Shown piece after piece: positions 50,591-56,481 of a DNA stretch of 64,000 nt; the first letter of the stretch is position 1; each line of letters begins with the position of its first letter. The notes under the pieces were generated by a model. It had not been told where the DNA came from and did no database searches. It saw nothing but the letters and a program-made list of their open reading frames with translations. Where the stretch lies: positions 1 through 64,000 of the forward strand of contig JAERTE010000103.1 of NCBI GenBank assembly GCA_016845145.1. Reading direction: 5' to 3'. Origin of the DNA: Rhodospirillaceae bacterium. GTDB lineage: Bacteria > Pseudomonadota > Alphaproteobacteria > Rhodospirillales > Casp-alpha2. The position numbers were made by a program, and so were the translations under genes.

Positions 50591-51274
50591 TTGACGCCCG
50601 TGGAAACCGAAGCCCTGCTGCTGAGCTTGCGTGTCGCCGTATGGTCGGTCGCACTGAGCCTGCCGCTCGGATTGCTGACGGCATGGGTTTTGGCACGGTT
50701 GCGGTTTCCGGGCAAATTCCTGCTCGACGGGCTGGTGCACCTGCCGCTGATCGTGCCGCCCGTGGTCATCGGTTATCTGTTGCTCGTTGGGTTCGGCCGG
50801 CAAGGCTGGATCGGGGGCTGGCTGTTCGATACCTTCGGGCTATCGCTGGCGTTTTCGTGGCGCGGCGCTGCCGTAGCCGCTGCGGTGATGTCATTTCCGT
50901 TGATGGTGCGCGCCATTCGGCTGTCGCTGGAAGCCGTCGACCCTCGTCTCGAAGATGCGGCGAGAACGCTCGGGGCTTCGCCGCGCTGGGTGTTCTTTAC
51001 GGTGACGTTACCGCTGATTGTTCCGGGCTTGATCACCGGCACCATTTTGGCGTTCGCCCGCAGCCTCGGTGAATTTGGCGCGACCATCACATTCGTTTCC
51101 AACATTCCCGGTGAAACCCGCACCCTCCCCTTGGCCCTTTACACCTTGGTGCAAACACCCGACGGCGAAGCGGCAGCGCTTAGGCTGGTGGTGATTTCTG
51201 TTGTATTGGCCTTGGGCGCTTTGATCCTGTCCGAGGTTCTGGCCCGCCGCGTCCGTGCATCGGAGGGGGCGTGA
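50591..51274 (+). CDS. modB: Molybdate ABC transporter, permease ModB
   Basis: A 227-residue permease with five helices and the EAA loop RAIRLSLEAVDPRLEDAARTLGA. The frame opens at TTG 50591, which has an AGGAG ribosome binding site 8 bases upstream, and no in-frame ATG lies close; the TTG start is therefore accepted. It is 11 bases after modA and 1 base before modC. Confidence 0.94.
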   Translation: MTPVETEALLLSLRVAVWSVALSLPLGLLTAWVLARLRFPGKFLLDGLVHLPLIVPPVVIGYLLLVGFGRQGWIGGWLFDTFGLSLAFSWRGAAVAAAVMSFPLMVRAIRLSLEAVDPRLEDAARTLGASPRWVFFTVTLPLIVPGLITGTILAFARSLGEFGATITFVSNIPGETRTLPLALYTLVQTPDGEAAALRLVVISVVLALGALILSEVLARRVRASEGA

Positions 51275-51275
51275 T

Positions 51276-52397
51276 ATGACGGACGTTAGTGACTTGTTGG
51301 TCGATATCGAATACCGGCGCGGAGACTTTCAACTGCGTGCCGACTTTCAGGCCGGGCGCGGGCTGACGGCGTTTTTCGGGCGCTCCGGTTCGGGCAAGAC
51401 AACGCTGGCCAATTTGATCGCCGGACTGGCGCGGCCAGGGAAAGGACGCCTCAGTATCGGTGAACGGGTGATGTTTGACGCCGAGCAAGGATTGTTCGTG
51501 CCGCCGGAACTCCGCCGCATCGGCTATGTGTTTCAGGAAGGAAGACTGTTTCCGCATCTCTCCGTTCACAAAAACCTGCACTACGGGCAGCGTTTCGTGC
51601 CAAGCGATGCGATCGCACCCGAGCCCGGCGAAGTTATTGAGCTTTTGGAACTGCAACCGTTGCTGCACCGCCGCCCCGGAAACCTGTCAGGTGGAGAAAA
51701 GCAACGTGTCGCCATTGGCCGGGCGCTGTTGAGTGCGCCGCAACTGCTGGTCATGGACGAGCCATTGGCTGCGCTGGATGCGACCCATAAAAACGAAATC
51801 CTGCCGTTCATTGAGCGATTGCGTGACGAAGCCGGGATTCCGATCATTTATGTCAGCCATGCCTTGGAAGAGGTCATCCGCCTCGCCGACACCATGGTTA
51901 TCTTGGATCACGGTCGCACGGTGGCGTCGGGCGGCGTCGAGGAAATCATGGGCCGGCTGGACCTAAGGCCGTTGACGGGCAGGTATGAAGCGGGCGCGGT
52001 GTTGGGCGTCACGGTGCGCGGCCAGGACAAAAGCTGGGGGCTGACCGAACTGGGATTTGCCGGTGGGCGCTTGTGGGTACCGGGATTGGACGCACCCTTA
52101 GGCACGGCACTTCGCATGCGTATCCGGGCGCGCGATGTGTCGCTCAGCCTCACCCGGCCGACAGATACGTCAATCCTCAACGTACTCGAAGCTACCGTCC
52201 GCGAAATTGCGCCGGCTGGCGGGCCGCAGACCGAGGTATTGTTAGATGTCGGCGCTCCCTTGATCGCGCGCGTCACCCGCAAGTCTGTTGCCGCAATGGG
52301 TTTAGAACCGGGAAAGCAGGTTTTCGCCCTGGTGAAGGCAGCCGCCATCGACCGTCATACACTCGGGCTTGGCGGTACGCGCAAACGCCGCGGCTGA
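51276..52397 (+). CDS. modC: Molybdate ABC transporter, ATP-binding protein ModC
   Basis: A 373-residue ATPase. Walker A is GRSGSGKTT at 35-43, signature NLSGGEKQRVAIGRALL, Walker B LLVMDEPLAALD, and switch histidine in IYVSHALEEV. A C-terminal Mop (molybdate-binding) domain follows, ending LALVKAAAIDRH-like sequence, which in ModC proteins gives feedback inhibition by molybdate. No ModE regulator gene is near. Confidence 0.95.
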   Translation: MTDVSDLLVDIEYRRGDFQLRADFQAGRGLTAFFGRSGSGKTTLANLIAGLARPGKGRLSIGERVMFDAEQGLFVPPELRRIGYVFQEGRLFPHLSVHKNLHYGQRFVPSDAIAPEPGEVIELLELQPLLHRRPGNLSGGEKQRVAIGRALLSAPQLLVMDEPLAALDATHKNEILPFIERLRDEAGIPIIYVSHALEEVIRLADTMVILDHGRTVASGGVEEIMGRLDLRPLTGRYEAGAVLGVTVRGQDKSWGLTELGFAGGRLWVPGLDAPLGTALRMRIRARDVSLSLTRPTDTSILNVLEATVREIAPAGGPQTEVLLDVGAPLIARVTRKSVAAMGLEPGKQVFALVKAAAIDRHTLGLGGTRKRRG

Positions 52398-52477
52398 ACA
52401 ACACCATAGTCAAAATTATATTGTTGCGGATGATCTCCCGCTCTTGGATCCGGCATCCAGAACGTACGAGCCGCCGT

Positions 52478-52567
52478 TCAGCCCTCGAAATTGATGATGC
52501 CGCCGTCCTGATCGTGTTGCGCGCATGAAATAAAGAAGCTGGTATCCGGATACGTGGTTTCCACCTG
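52478..52567 (-). pseudogene. In-frame continuation of the methyltransferase beyond a TGA stop
   Basis: Directly after the methyltransferase TGA (52568-52570) the same frame continues for 29 codons, reading QVETTYPDTSFFIS and onward to a second TGA at 52478-52480. The run looks like real protein (an amphipathic helix continuing from EWWGALI, then a beta-strand). One base change, for example CGA to TGA, would explain it. The gene is likely truncated by a nonsense mutation or a sequencing error. Confidence 0.5.
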
Positions 52568-53125
52568 TCAAATCAACGCCCCCCACCACTCGGCGGGTTT
52601 GATCGTGCAATGAGCATTTTCGCCGTTCGGCAATAATTTTTTAGCGGGGAAACACGCAATATTTGCAAACACGAACTTGTTCGAATAGCTGAATATCTGA
52701 TCCAGTATCCATGGTAAATCGTCTTCCGGACAATGTTCCAATACATCAAAACAAATCACGGCATCAAATTTTCCGGTGGGTAGAGACGAAAGCGGTTCGT
52801 ACCCAGGGTCATAGCAACCGACAGTCTCAATGCCCAATAAGTCCTGGAGCGTGGTTTCGAATTCTCGGCCATCATTGATCGCATTAAATCGCAACTTCCA
52901 CTGCATGCCCTTTCCGCACCCGTAATCAAGCAGACTCTTGGCTTGATGGTGGTTCACCAGTTCCATAAGTTTTGGTATCTGGCTCTCGCGTGGCATGCCG
53001 GGAAACATCTCAGCGGGTGAACGGACGGCGTCACCTCCAGAATGCAATTGGCGATATAACGAGATGAGTTCACGCCATCTCGGACTCGGGTTGTCCGCCG
53101 AATACATTTCGAACTCCATGCACAT
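52568..53125 (-). CDS. SAM-dependent class I methyltransferase, probably truncated at the C-terminus
   Basis: A 185-residue protein with a Rossmann methyltransferase fold: SAM-binding LLDYGCGKGMQWKL, acidic residue in VGCYDPGYEPL, and the motif VICFDVLEHCPEDDLP. The final segment FANIACFPAKKLLPNG-ENAHCTIKPAEWW is found in methyltransferases of surface-polysaccharide clusters. Translation stops at TGA after WWGALI, though the frame continues with protein-like sequence. The start could be ATG 53125, ATG 53119 or TTG 53152. The gene is more AT-rich than modC, and lies near tRNA genes, so it may be acquired. The substrate is unknown. Confidence 0.75.
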   Translation of the reverse strand: MCMEFEMYSADNPSPRWRELISLYRQLHSGGDAVRSPAEMFPGMPRESQIPKLMELVNHHQAKSLLDYGCGKGMQWKLRFNAINDGREFETTLQDLLGIETVGCYDPGYEPLSSLPTGKFDAVICFDVLEHCPEDDLPWILDQIFSYSNKFVFANIACFPAKKLLPNGENAHCTIKPAEWWGALI

Positions 53126-53260
53126 CGTGTCCCGTAATGAGACACCTACCAATTGCCAATCGTTACGCTGCTAACCGTAAGCCAACATCGCGATGATTGG
53201 AAAGAACATAGTCCGGCGGCCATCTGGCAGCGTGGCGCCGGCGTAACGCAAATTATGCCT

Positions 53261-53650
53261 CTAATTCCGGCGGCGGGGCTGATCCGCCACGTACACCTTG
53301 CAGTTGGAATAGCCTTGATTGAAGAAATGGTAGGTCTTGCGGGGCTCGGCCAAGCCCTTGGGATCGTACAAATTCCATGTCGTGGTGGCGATGCCGGTCA
53401 AGGTCTGGCCGACCTTGCCAACAAACCCAATCGAGGACAGCAAGTATTTCCGCTGGCCGAACTCGCCGCGCTGACACGCATTGCTGAGTTGTCGGTTTAG
53501 CGCACCCACCCGCCAATAGGGCAGCGAGGTATAAGCATACTCGCCGGGCACGCGTTTACGCGCAGCGTCAGCGTTGCTGGCCAATACAAGGGGTGCCGCC
53601 AAAGAAAAAATGAGGGCGAAAATCCCGAACTTCTGTCCGTTGCGCAACAT
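53261..53650 (-). CDS. Small secreted protein of unknown function
   Basis: A 129-residue protein with a clear signal peptide (MLRNGQKFGIFALIFSLAAPLVLASNADA). The mature part of about 100 residues is basic and aromatic: EYAYTSLPYWRVGALNRQLSNACQ, a GQRKYLLSSIGFVGKVGQTL stretch, and TTTWNLYDPKGLAEPRKTYHF, with cysteines in SNACQ and SNCKVYV that could form one disulfide. I recognise no family. It lies alone next to tRNA-Arg and may be lineage-specific. Confidence 0.7.
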   Translation of the reverse strand: MLRNGQKFGIFALIFSLAAPLVLASNADAARKRVPGEYAYTSLPYWRVGALNRQLSNACQRGEFGQRKYLLSSIGFVGKVGQTLTGIATTTWNLYDPKGLAEPRKTYHFFNQGYSNCKVYVADQPRRRN

Positions 53651-53732
53651 CGGCTTCTGCCTCCTGCACGATTTGGAAACAGAATCTTAACTTATTTTAA
53701 ACAAAAGCGAAAGAGTCGGCGTAAAAGGAGGT

Positions 53733-53809
53733 TGGCGCGCCCGGCAGGACTCGAACCTGCAACCCCGAGCTTAGAAGGCACGTGCTCTATCCGGTTGAGC
53801 TACGGGCGC
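53733..53809 (-). tRNA. tRNA-Arg (TCT)
   Basis: A 77-base cloverleaf on the minus strand with encoded CCA. Acceptor GCGCCCG pairs with CGGGCGC; T-loop TTCGAGT is normal; the anticodon loop CTTCTAA gives TCT. The anticodon stem CGTGC/GCTCG contains a T-T mismatch at its middle pair (29-41). Confidence 0.93.
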
Positions 53810-53834
53810 CTCGCCGACGGCTTGCGGATACCGC

Positions 53835-54134
53835 TTATTCGAAGCGAAATCTGAAGCTGTAGTTGTCTGAATAATTTTTCGGCTGCACCCGACGGCGTTT
53901 CGGGGCCTGCACTTGATAGGAAAGCCCATGCTTGTCGGCATATGCGATGGCGTCTTCCTTGCTGGCGAACTTCAGCCGCACCTGGGCATTGGTATCGCCC
54001 GAGCCGATCCACCCCATCAAGGAATCCGCGCGGCGCGCCTCAGCGGGCTCAAAATCCAAAACCCAATTCTTGGTATTGCTCCGGCCCGACTGCATCGCCG
54101 TCTTCGCCGGTTGATAAATACGCGCTTCGGTCAT
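53835..54134 (-). CDS. Complex I accessory subunit, NDUFS4-like
   Basis: A 99-residue protein of the ETC complex I subunit family (mitochondrial NDUFS4, 18 kDa). Conserved pieces are ARIYQPAKTAMQSGRSNTKNWVLDFEP at the N-terminus, DSLMGWIGSGDTNAQVRLKFASKEDAIAYA, and PKRRRVQPKNYSDNYSFRFRFE at the C-terminus. It stabilises the NADH module in alphaproteobacterial and mitochondrial complex I. ATG 54134 has GAGGTGG upstream. It lies between two tRNA genes, 43 kb from the nuo operon, as is common for this gene. Confidence 0.9.
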   Translation of the reverse strand: MTEARIYQPAKTAMQSGRSNTKNWVLDFEPAEARRADSLMGWIGSGDTNAQVRLKFASKEDAIAYADKHGLSYQVQAPKRRRVQPKNYSDNYSFRFRFE

Positions 54135-54161
54135 GGCCACCTCGTGTCCGGGCCTCAAAGT

Positions 54162-54238
54162 TGGTCGGGGAGACTGGATTCGAACCAGCGACCCTCTGCT
54201 CCCAAAGCAGATGCGCTACCAGGCTGCGCCACTCCCCG
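54162..54238 (-). tRNA. tRNA-Pro (TGG)
   Basis: A 77-base cloverleaf on the minus strand with encoded CCA. Acceptor CGGGGAG pairs with CTCCCCG; the anticodon loop TTTGGGA between TCTGC and GCAGA gives TGG; T-loop TTCGAAT. It lies just before the NDUFS4-like gene and tRNA-Arg, in the same direction. Confidence 0.97.
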
Positions 54239-54358
54239 AGTACTTTGTTTTCTATGGTTAAGTAGCGCCTTAAGCAACCGGAATCTGACGCTTGGTTGCC
54301 GGGCTTGGATTGCTGGCCTAGAGTTTGCCTCCAACGCGTTGACCAAGGGAGCCCCGCA

Positions 54359-55825
54359 ATGGCGGCATTCGATCTGATCATATCCGGCGGAACGGTTGCC
54401 ACAGCCGCCGACACTTTTAAGGCCGACATCGGTATTCGGGGCGGCCGTGTCGCGGCAATCGCCGACGCATTGGACGGCGCTGATCGGATTATCGACGCGA
54501 CGGGCAAGCTGGTTCTGCCGGGCGGTGTCGAGGCGCATTGCCATATTGCCCAGGAATCGGGCATGGGGATCATGGCCGCCGACGATTATGAAAGCGGCTC
54601 GATTTCAGCCGTTTTCGGCGGCAATACGACGATTGTGCCGTTCGCGGCGCAACACAAAGGGCAAAGTCTGCGTGAGGTTGTCGAGATCTACCATGATCGC
54701 GCCGGCCCCAAATCCGTCATCGATTACGCGTTTCACCTGATCATCTCCGACCCGACCGAACAGGTGTTGGGGCAGGAACTTCCGGCGCTGATCAAGGATG
54801 GTTACACATCGTTCAAGGTGTTCCTGACCTATCCGTTATTGAAGCTGGCGGATGAGGATTTGCTCAACGTGCTGAGCGTGGCGCGCGAGAACGGCGCCAT
54901 CACCATGGTGCATGCGGAAAACGATGACATCATCCGCTGGTTGTCGGACAAACTGATGGATGCGGGGCACACAGCCCCCAAATACCACGCCGTCAGCCAT
55001 GCGCGCATCGCCGAGTCGGAGGCGACAAACCGCGCCATCCAATTGGCCCGGCTGGTCGACACACCGCTGTTGATCGTCCATGTCTCAACCGACGAGGCCG
55101 CGTCTACGATCCGCCGCGCCCAGGATGCAGGGCTCAGGGTGTTCGGCGAGACCTGCCCGCAATATCTGTTCCTGACCATCGACGATATCGACAAGGACGG
55201 CATGGAAGGTGCCAAGTTCTGCTGTTCACCACCGCCGCGCGACGAGGCCGATCAAGAAGCCATGTGGCGCGCGCTGGCCAACGGCACGTTTCAGGTTTTC
55301 CATTCCGACCACGCGCCCTACCGTTTCGACGAAACCGGCAAACTACACGCCGGGCCCAATGCACCGTTCAAAAAACTCGCCAACGGCGTGCCGGGAATCG
55401 AACTGCGCATGCCACTGCTGTTCTCGGAAGGTGTCGGCAAGGGCCGCATCAGTCTCAATGATTTCGTCGCCCTCACGTCAACCAACGCCGCCAAGATTTA
55501 CGGCATGCATCCGCGCAAAGGCACTATCGCGATCGGTTCGGACGCCGACATCGCCATATGGGACCCCGACCGCGAGGTCAACGTGAGCTATGATCTGTTG
55601 CACGACAACGTCGGCTATACGCCTTATGAAGGCATGCAATTGAAAGGCTGGCCGGAAACCGTAATCAGCGCCGGACGGGTTGCCGTGTCCGATGGTGAGC
55701 TGCATGTGGAACCGGGATCGGGAACCTTCCTGGAACGCACGCCGGGTTATGATTTCATCCGGCCCGCCGGCACTCTGGCGCCCGAAACGGATCCGGCGAC
55801 CAATTTTGGCGCGAAGATCGTCTAG
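54359..55825 (+). CDS. hydA: Dihydropyrimidinase / D-hydantoinase
   Basis: Zinc-dependent cyclic amidohydrolase, 488 residues, that opens hydantoins or dihydropyrimidines to N-carbamoyl amino acids. Likely metal ligands are H60 and H62 (AHCH), the carbamylated lysine K153 (SFKVFLTYP), H185, H241 (VHVST) and D317 (HSDHAPY). Usual enzymes have HTH where this has HCH. The pocket residues cannot settle whether the substrate is a hydantoin or a dihydropyrimidine. It heads an operon with the racemase 2 bases downstream. ATG 54359 has GGGAG upstream. Confidence 0.9.
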   Translation: MAAFDLIISGGTVATAADTFKADIGIRGGRVAAIADALDGADRIIDATGKLVLPGGVEAHCHIAQESGMGIMAADDYESGSISAVFGGNTTIVPFAAQHKGQSLREVVEIYHDRAGPKSVIDYAFHLIISDPTEQVLGQELPALIKDGYTSFKVFLTYPLLKLADEDLLNVLSVARENGAITMVHAENDDIIRWLSDKLMDAGHTAPKYHAVSHARIAESEATNRAIQLARLVDTPLLIVHVSTDEAASTIRRAQDAGLRVFGETCPQYLFLTIDDIDKDGMEGAKFCCSPPPRDEADQEAMWRALANGTFQVFHSDHAPYRFDETGKLHAGPNAPFKKLANGVPGIELRMPLLFSEGVGKGRISLNDFVALTSTNAAKIYGMHPRKGTIAIGSDADIAIWDPDREVNVSYDLLHDNVGYTPYEGMQLKGWPETVISAGRVAVSDGELHVEPGSGTFLERTPGYDFIRPAGTLAPETDPATNFGAKIV

Positions 55826-55827
55826 CC

Positions 55828-56481
55828 ATGCCGGGCATTATTCGCATCATCAATCCGAACTCTAATCCTGCCGTCACCCAAGGCATGTCCGAGGCGGTTG
55901 AACCGTTACGCTTGGCCGGCGGACCGATATTGGATTGCGTTACGTTGGAAACGGGCACCTTTGGCATCGAAAGCGATGAAGACATAGAGATGGTCACGCC
56001 AATGCTGGTCGAGTGGGTCAAGCAAGACACCGAGGCTTCCGCATTCATCATCGGCTGTTACAGCGACCCGGGCCTGGGCCCATGCCGCGAGACCACTAAC
56101 AAGCCCGTGATGGGGATTGCCGAATGCGCCATGCTGACGGCGCTGACGCGGGCTTCGAAGTTCGGTGTTATCTCGATCCTGGAAGCGTCTATCCCACGCC
56201 ATCGGCGGCATATGGAGGCTCGCAGCCTTCATCATCAGTGCGCCGGCGACCGTGCCATTGGGATGGGGGTCTCGGAAGTCGAAAGCCGGGCAGACGCGTT
56301 CGATCATCTGGTCAGCGTCGGCCAAGCGCTACGTGATGAAGATGGCGCAGGGGCCGTGATCACCGGATGCACGGGCATGGCCAAGTACGGCGCACGCCTT
56401 GAAAAGGCCTTGGAAATCCCGGTCATCGACCCGACCCAGGCAGCGGCTGGCATGGCACTTTCCGCGGTTGCGCTGGGTTAA
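55828..56481 (+). CDS. Aspartate/glutamate/hydantoin racemase family protein
   Basis: A 217-residue cofactor-independent racemase. Its two catalytic cysteines are C77 in IGCYSDPG and C181 in TGCTGM. The start IIRIINPNSNPAVTQGM is the phosphate/substrate-binding pattern of hydantoin racemases and of allantoin racemase. With the upstream hydantoinase and the convergent carbamoylase it fits a hydantoin route to D-amino acids. Allantoin or maleate-type isomerase activity cannot be excluded. Confidence 0.85.
   Translation: MPGIIRIINPNSNPAVTQGMSEAVEPLRLAGGPILDCVTLETGTFGIESDEDIEMVTPMLVEWVKQDTEASAFIIGCYSDPGLGPCRETTNKPVMGIAECAMLTALTRASKFGVISILEASIPRHRRHMEARSLHHQCAGDRAIGMGVSEVESRADAFDHLVSVGQALRDEDGAGAVITGCTGMAKYGARLEKALEIPVIDPTQAAAGMALSAVALG

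Follow-up and report, generated by a model that had tools for sequence, protein, structure and literature searches.

The methyltransferase gene on the reverse strand of the window (the whole stretch of 64,000 nucleotides analyzed here) is closed by a TGA, behind which the same frame stays open up to a second TGA. This raises the question of whether the first stop is the natural end of the protein or an interruption, and, if it is an interruption, whether a mutation, an error in the base or readthrough of the codon accounts for it best.

The reading frame and its interruption

The body of the gene comprises 179 codons (52571–53107, minus strand), is recognized as a methyltransferase by Pfam, PHROG and family alignments and contains the motifs LLDYGCGKG, CYDPGYEP, DVLEHCPEDDLPW and LPNGENAHCT. 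Codon 180 is an in-frame TGA (52570–52568), and all 149 relatives compared have a residue at this column, marking the stop as premature. Behind it, 29 in-frame codons (52567–52481) encode QVETTYPDTSFFISCAQHDQDGGIINFEG, up to the second TGA (52480–52478), which ends a frame of family length with 208 sense codons plus the position of the first TGA. The original prediction had described both stops and the codons between them exactly in this way. Lying at codon 180 of 209, the stop cuts off roughly a seventh of the protein at its C-terminal end, and there are no further stops in the methyltransferase frame.

The frame had been proposed to start at 53125. Its coordinates are right and this start is possible, but ATG 53107 is likelier because of a GGAG at 53117–53114 (minus strand), a likely ribosome-binding site placed by eye 6 bases before that ATG, and because of the Met positions in relatives. 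Among 138 relatives examined, 86 have their nearest Met 1 to 4 residues before the Tyr that aligns with the one following ATG 53107 in the window gene.

Family assignment and an intact paralogue

The methyltransferase matches the Pfam family PF13489 (Methyltransf_23) over residues 59–149 (E 2.7e-07, 30.9 bits, over the cut-off of 27) and PHROG 24759 over residues 52–182 (E 1.9e-21, with no curated cut-off given). It shares the family match and the fold with proteins of these two families, but the window copy is cut short by about 30 residues. The DYG.GK and D..EH columns, which we take to be the glycine-rich SAM motif and the conserved acidic motif, are invariant in a 48-row alignment that includes the window gene among its rows. 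No NCBIfam model scored over its own cut-off for the methyltransferase, the best being BchM-ChlM with 28.7 of 158.9 bits. Judged by these sequence matches, the window gene is a class I SAM-dependent methyltransferase.

The same genome carries an intact paralogue of 222 aa on contig C146 (L021; L233:4894-5562) that is 43–44% identical. The two genes belong to a common family, but the paralogue is unbroken and has other neighbors: it adjoins a GT8-like gene, whose 22.6 bits narrowly miss the cut-off of 24.3, with a TPR-sulfotransferase gene beyond. By analogy with this GT8-like neighbor, one might guess that the substrate is a small molecule or a surface sugar. In a tree of 108 rows, whose bootstrap had not settled, the paralogue groups with copies from the same genus and the same family (100/97 and 100/99) with the window gene outside. 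The window gene falls into a fan whose rows are mostly proteobacterial; it is not included in any starred branch, and its end branch measures 0.92. Overall identity to the nearest relative found is 50%, with 55% in the best segment; this is too distant for dN/dS or for dating the stop.

One other family member, L012 (G033:C36:1487-1720), also has an in-frame TGA, located within the conserved LPNGENAH motif. The idea that in-frame stops are common in this family was rejected, as L012 alone among 180 loci has a stop inside its best match. In L005, a TAG that had also been counted sits, on our reading, immediately upstream of the start codon.

The tail belongs to the gene

Relatives were drawn from genomes within the same family and order; other bacteria contributed the best 80 of 195, and viral contigs the best 80 of 577 matches listed. 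This gave 180 loci matched at E 1e-15 or better, 157 of them distinct. We compared the 149 loci in which the match reaches query residue 180 and the stop lies inside the locus; the 8 other distinct loci were excluded. All 149 extend beyond the position of the TGA, with a continuation of at least 12 residues, which in 131 measures 25 to 50 residues. The check proposed for this locus, namely whether homologues continue past the stop, thus has a clear answer, as none of them ends there. Many relatives also share the pattern seen in the window tail, a Tyr or His followed by Pro and then a strand, which reads TYPDTSFFIS in the window and, for example, RHPGVAWEFW and NHPEIPYFIL among relatives.

Conservation of the tail itself was examined with a family profile built from 148 relatives with the window gene left out, its columns being taken from an alignment that includes the window gene. 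The body joined through an X to the real tail scored 273.9 bits compared with 262.0 for the body alone, a gain of 11.9 bits, and the alignment is unbroken over residues 6–207. Body with shuffled tails scored 264.0 ± 1.2 bits (maximum 270.9), none of 5000 shuffles reaching the real tail, and tails from the other two frames gave 264.3 and 263.8 bits, likewise below it. A profile of the tail only, a weak, unanchored test on which we do not build, gave 4.8 bits for the real tail and −0.9 and −1.0 bits for the other two frames. The 4.8 bits were equaled by 13 of 5000 shuffles and by 14 of the 9514 stretches of 29 open codons in the window; the tail is therefore recognizable mainly by its place. Tail conservation, on which the original prediction had let its case depend, is accordingly upheld for the tail together with the body, while the tail by itself is only weakly recognized.

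The length of the open run is no evidence on its own, because 25 of the 61 window ORFs of 90 codons or more, the methyltransferase included, have an equally long open run after their stop; the evidence is the homology. By that measure, the sequence comparisons identify the 29-codon tail as part of the methyltransferase gene.

The stop truncates the modeled fold

An AlphaFold2 model of the chain read through the TGA, computed from an alignment with 47 relatives, has a mean pLDDT of 94.5 and a pTM of 0.90. A helix that continues naturally through the stop had been foreseen from the letters, and the model bears this out: helix 172–183 spans residue 180. The tail supplies the predicted last two strands, 190–198 and 204–208. 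Foldseek returned 3e23 as the sole match with an E under 0.001 (E 8.6e-4, TM 0.52), with a few unrelated proteins lower in the list. All 50 rows listed by VIA-align have Z 9.2–11.3, and 49 of them align up to the last residue of the model; the top row is METTL6 (8owx_A; Z 11.3, rmsd 4.0, 173 residues aligned). The read-through model matches class I methyltransferases, structural matches that do not reveal the substrate.

According to the model, the sheet is complete only if the TGA is read through, and the encoded product is without strands 190–198 and 204–208. The SAM-site motifs precede the stop in the family alignments and so are kept in the encoded 179-residue product. Because the chain would break off halfway through the last helix and leave out the two C-terminal strands, the model suggests that this product is probably inactive or unstable.

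A probable recent nonsense mutation, or a base error

One mark of a pseudogene, an in-frame stop inside a region that relatives conserve, is found here; a pseudogene would also have lost its function and be free of selection. The remainder of the gene is well preserved. Of the 24 columns with at least 90% conservation among 148 relatives, it is changed in 1 (Tyr to Trp), and as many changes or more occur in 35 of the 148. With no decay elsewhere in the gene, the lesion looks recent. We consider it probable that the gene is an accessory class I methyltransferase, likely acquired by transfer, that was broken by one recent nonsense mutation. The stop itself, the homology of the tail, the intactness of the remaining gene, the predicted structure and the variability of the site are shown; the acquisition, the loss of function, the recency and the reality of the base are what we infer. 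The methyltransferase gene would have come into its present slot by transfer, a single nonsense mutation would afterwards have struck codon 180 of 209, and the product would now end within the last helix, lacking the two C-terminal strands.

For the lost codon, Trp or Arg had been suggested, and both find little support among the 149 relatives, where Trp does not occur at the stop column and Arg occurs 12 times. Ala (31), Glu (22) and Asp (16) stand there more often, and the column also has Asn (12), Lys (12), Ser (11) and others.

The organism's gene might instead be intact, the TGA being an error of sequencing, assembly or binning. This would fit a draft assembly of 151 contigs with 7.19% contamination, and a gene otherwise free of decay is also what an intact gene would look like. 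Single-base errors are, however, rare in assembled short-read contigs. We also scanned 61 window ORFs for a coding-like in-frame continuation past the stop and, judging by eye, found no second interrupted gene: of five higher-scoring ORFs, three have a same-frame neighbor gene behind them and two are apparently antisense. The stretch is therefore not visibly error-ridden with respect to in-frame stops. We regard a base error as unlikely, though it deserves to be kept in mind.

Recoding and readthrough

The stop could also be translated, by selenocysteine, by insertion of Trp or as a leaky stop, so that some full-length enzyme is made. The frame is family-like on either side of the stop, and in E. 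coli a UGA with a C behind it terminates weakly. But the residues at the stop column vary, with Cys in 1 of the 149 relatives and Trp in none, and TGA terminates 28 of the 56 window ORFs of 150 codons or more.

For selenocysteine, the machinery was searched in the genome, which has an estimated completeness of 98.71%. No tRNA-Sec passed the cut-off of 47 bits, the best match having 44.5, whereas 5 of 14 control genomes have one that does. ARAGORN assigns the best of these sub-cut-off matches to tRNA-Leu and the third to tRNA-Ser, and where the second and fourth lie it predicts tRNA genes for Gly and Tyr. SelB was likewise not found over its cut-off of 242.25 bits in the genome, where the best match has 86.7 bits; 2 of 14 controls exceed it. 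A selenoprotein would be expected to come with tRNA-Sec and SelB in the genome and with Cys or Sec at the column in relatives, and neither is seen here apart from the one Cys. An Rfam search for RNA elements in 51000–55000 returned only two tRNAs.

The single tRNA-Trp found by exact pattern looks normal, with an anticodon stem of 5 pairs as counted by eye. It differs in this from the UGA-reading form of tRNA-Trp with a 4-pair anticodon stem that is described in PMC13092985.

In Belinky et al. 2021 (PMC7918605), bacterial in-frame stops are described as widespread, mostly short-lived and on average under purifying selection, and readthrough is suspected for those under such selection, which would favor a translated stop here. 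Like the window gene, the bacterial genes treated there are sound apart from a single in-frame stop. The focus of that work is on stops common to two or more species, whereas the window stop occurs in one genome and is absent from 149 relatives.

Taken as a whole, programmed recoding is unlikely, and we see only a very small chance that functional readthrough of any of these kinds yields full-length enzyme. As has been proposed in general for in-frame stops under purifying selection, the TGA might also be kept as a valve for low-level expression, basal readthrough at UGA-C giving a little full-length enzyme; because the tail is in frame and family-like we allow this a similarly slight probability. 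It is hardly credible, even with the SAM-site motifs upstream of the stop, that the 179-residue protein works as a functional methyltransferase in this shortened form: each of the 149 relatives goes on for more than 11 residues beyond the stop, and the part that is lost makes two strands of the modeled fold. The original prediction had preferred mutation or error to readthrough, and the analysis supports this. The broken gene remains the favored reading; it is an ordinary gene, and we found no sign of a new mechanism.

A slot with changing cargo

The methyltransferase lies between a convergent gene for an ABC transporter ATPase with a TOBE domain, which we call modC-like (51255–52397, plus strand), and a gene for a 129-aa protein without a Pfam family (53261–53650, minus strand) that is present in related genomes. 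The latter gene was found in 24 of 61 genomes, the window's own included. The 129-aa protein has a start that resembles a signal peptide by eye, and the same two tRNA genes (Arg and Pro) are near its gene in the window and in G002, a genome of the same genus.

Among 23 loci taken from relatives, analyzed with 1.5 kb flanks, 9 contain both flanking genes, and none of these 9 has the methyltransferase between them. Other genes take its place. In 10 of the 23 loci (L237-L241, L243, L244, L246, L248 and L251), the neighbor of the 129-residue gene is an intact-looking gene for a 2OG-Fe(II) oxygenase (PF13759). Decayed remains of this oxygenase gene are found in L235, from G002, where the interval contains its ruins (E 5.5e-21, several stops), and in L242, from G023 of the same family. 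L236 carries a PAS_5 protein, and L253 and L255 carry other ORFs. A search for oxygenase remains in the window interval (52398–53260) gave no match. Judged from these loci, the slot beside the 129-residue gene changes its cargo, which would make the methyltransferase a replacement or an insertion in the window's lineage.

Base composition is a weak sign of transfer. GC is 0.49 in 52500–52999 compared with about 0.60 on the side of the ABC gene, but the other flank reaches only 0.55–0.56 and the paralogue also lies below the ABC gene (codon-position GC 0.545, 0.396 and 0.64 versus 0.687, 0.466 and 0.687). There are no repeats of 12 bases or more around the methyltransferase gene, and a scan for promoters and terminators gave one promoter-like site, on the other strand and at chance level.

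A decayed methyltransferase at the same site in G002, suggested by weak tblastn pieces, was rejected by shuffle controls. The best profile score in that interval is −2.9 bits, which 888 of 1000 dinucleotide shuffles reach; the tblastn score of 21.6 bits on the plus strand was reached in 38 of 100 shuffles and that of 24.6 bits on the other strand in 5 of 100. Eleven queries match one place of the interval, and the highest count in shuffles is 17.

Further along the window, a probable gene of the dihydropyrimidinase/hydantoinase type (54296–55825) adjoins an Asp/Glu racemase-like gene (55828–56481), both named by eye. Contigs C123 and C148 of this genome carry DNA matching part of the former at 71% and 66%.

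For annotation, the locus should be entered as an interrupted methyltransferase and not as a complete protein of 179 to 194 residues. Beyond this its importance is slight; it is a modest instance of how a slot next to a conserved gene changes as accessory genes are gained, replaced and broken.
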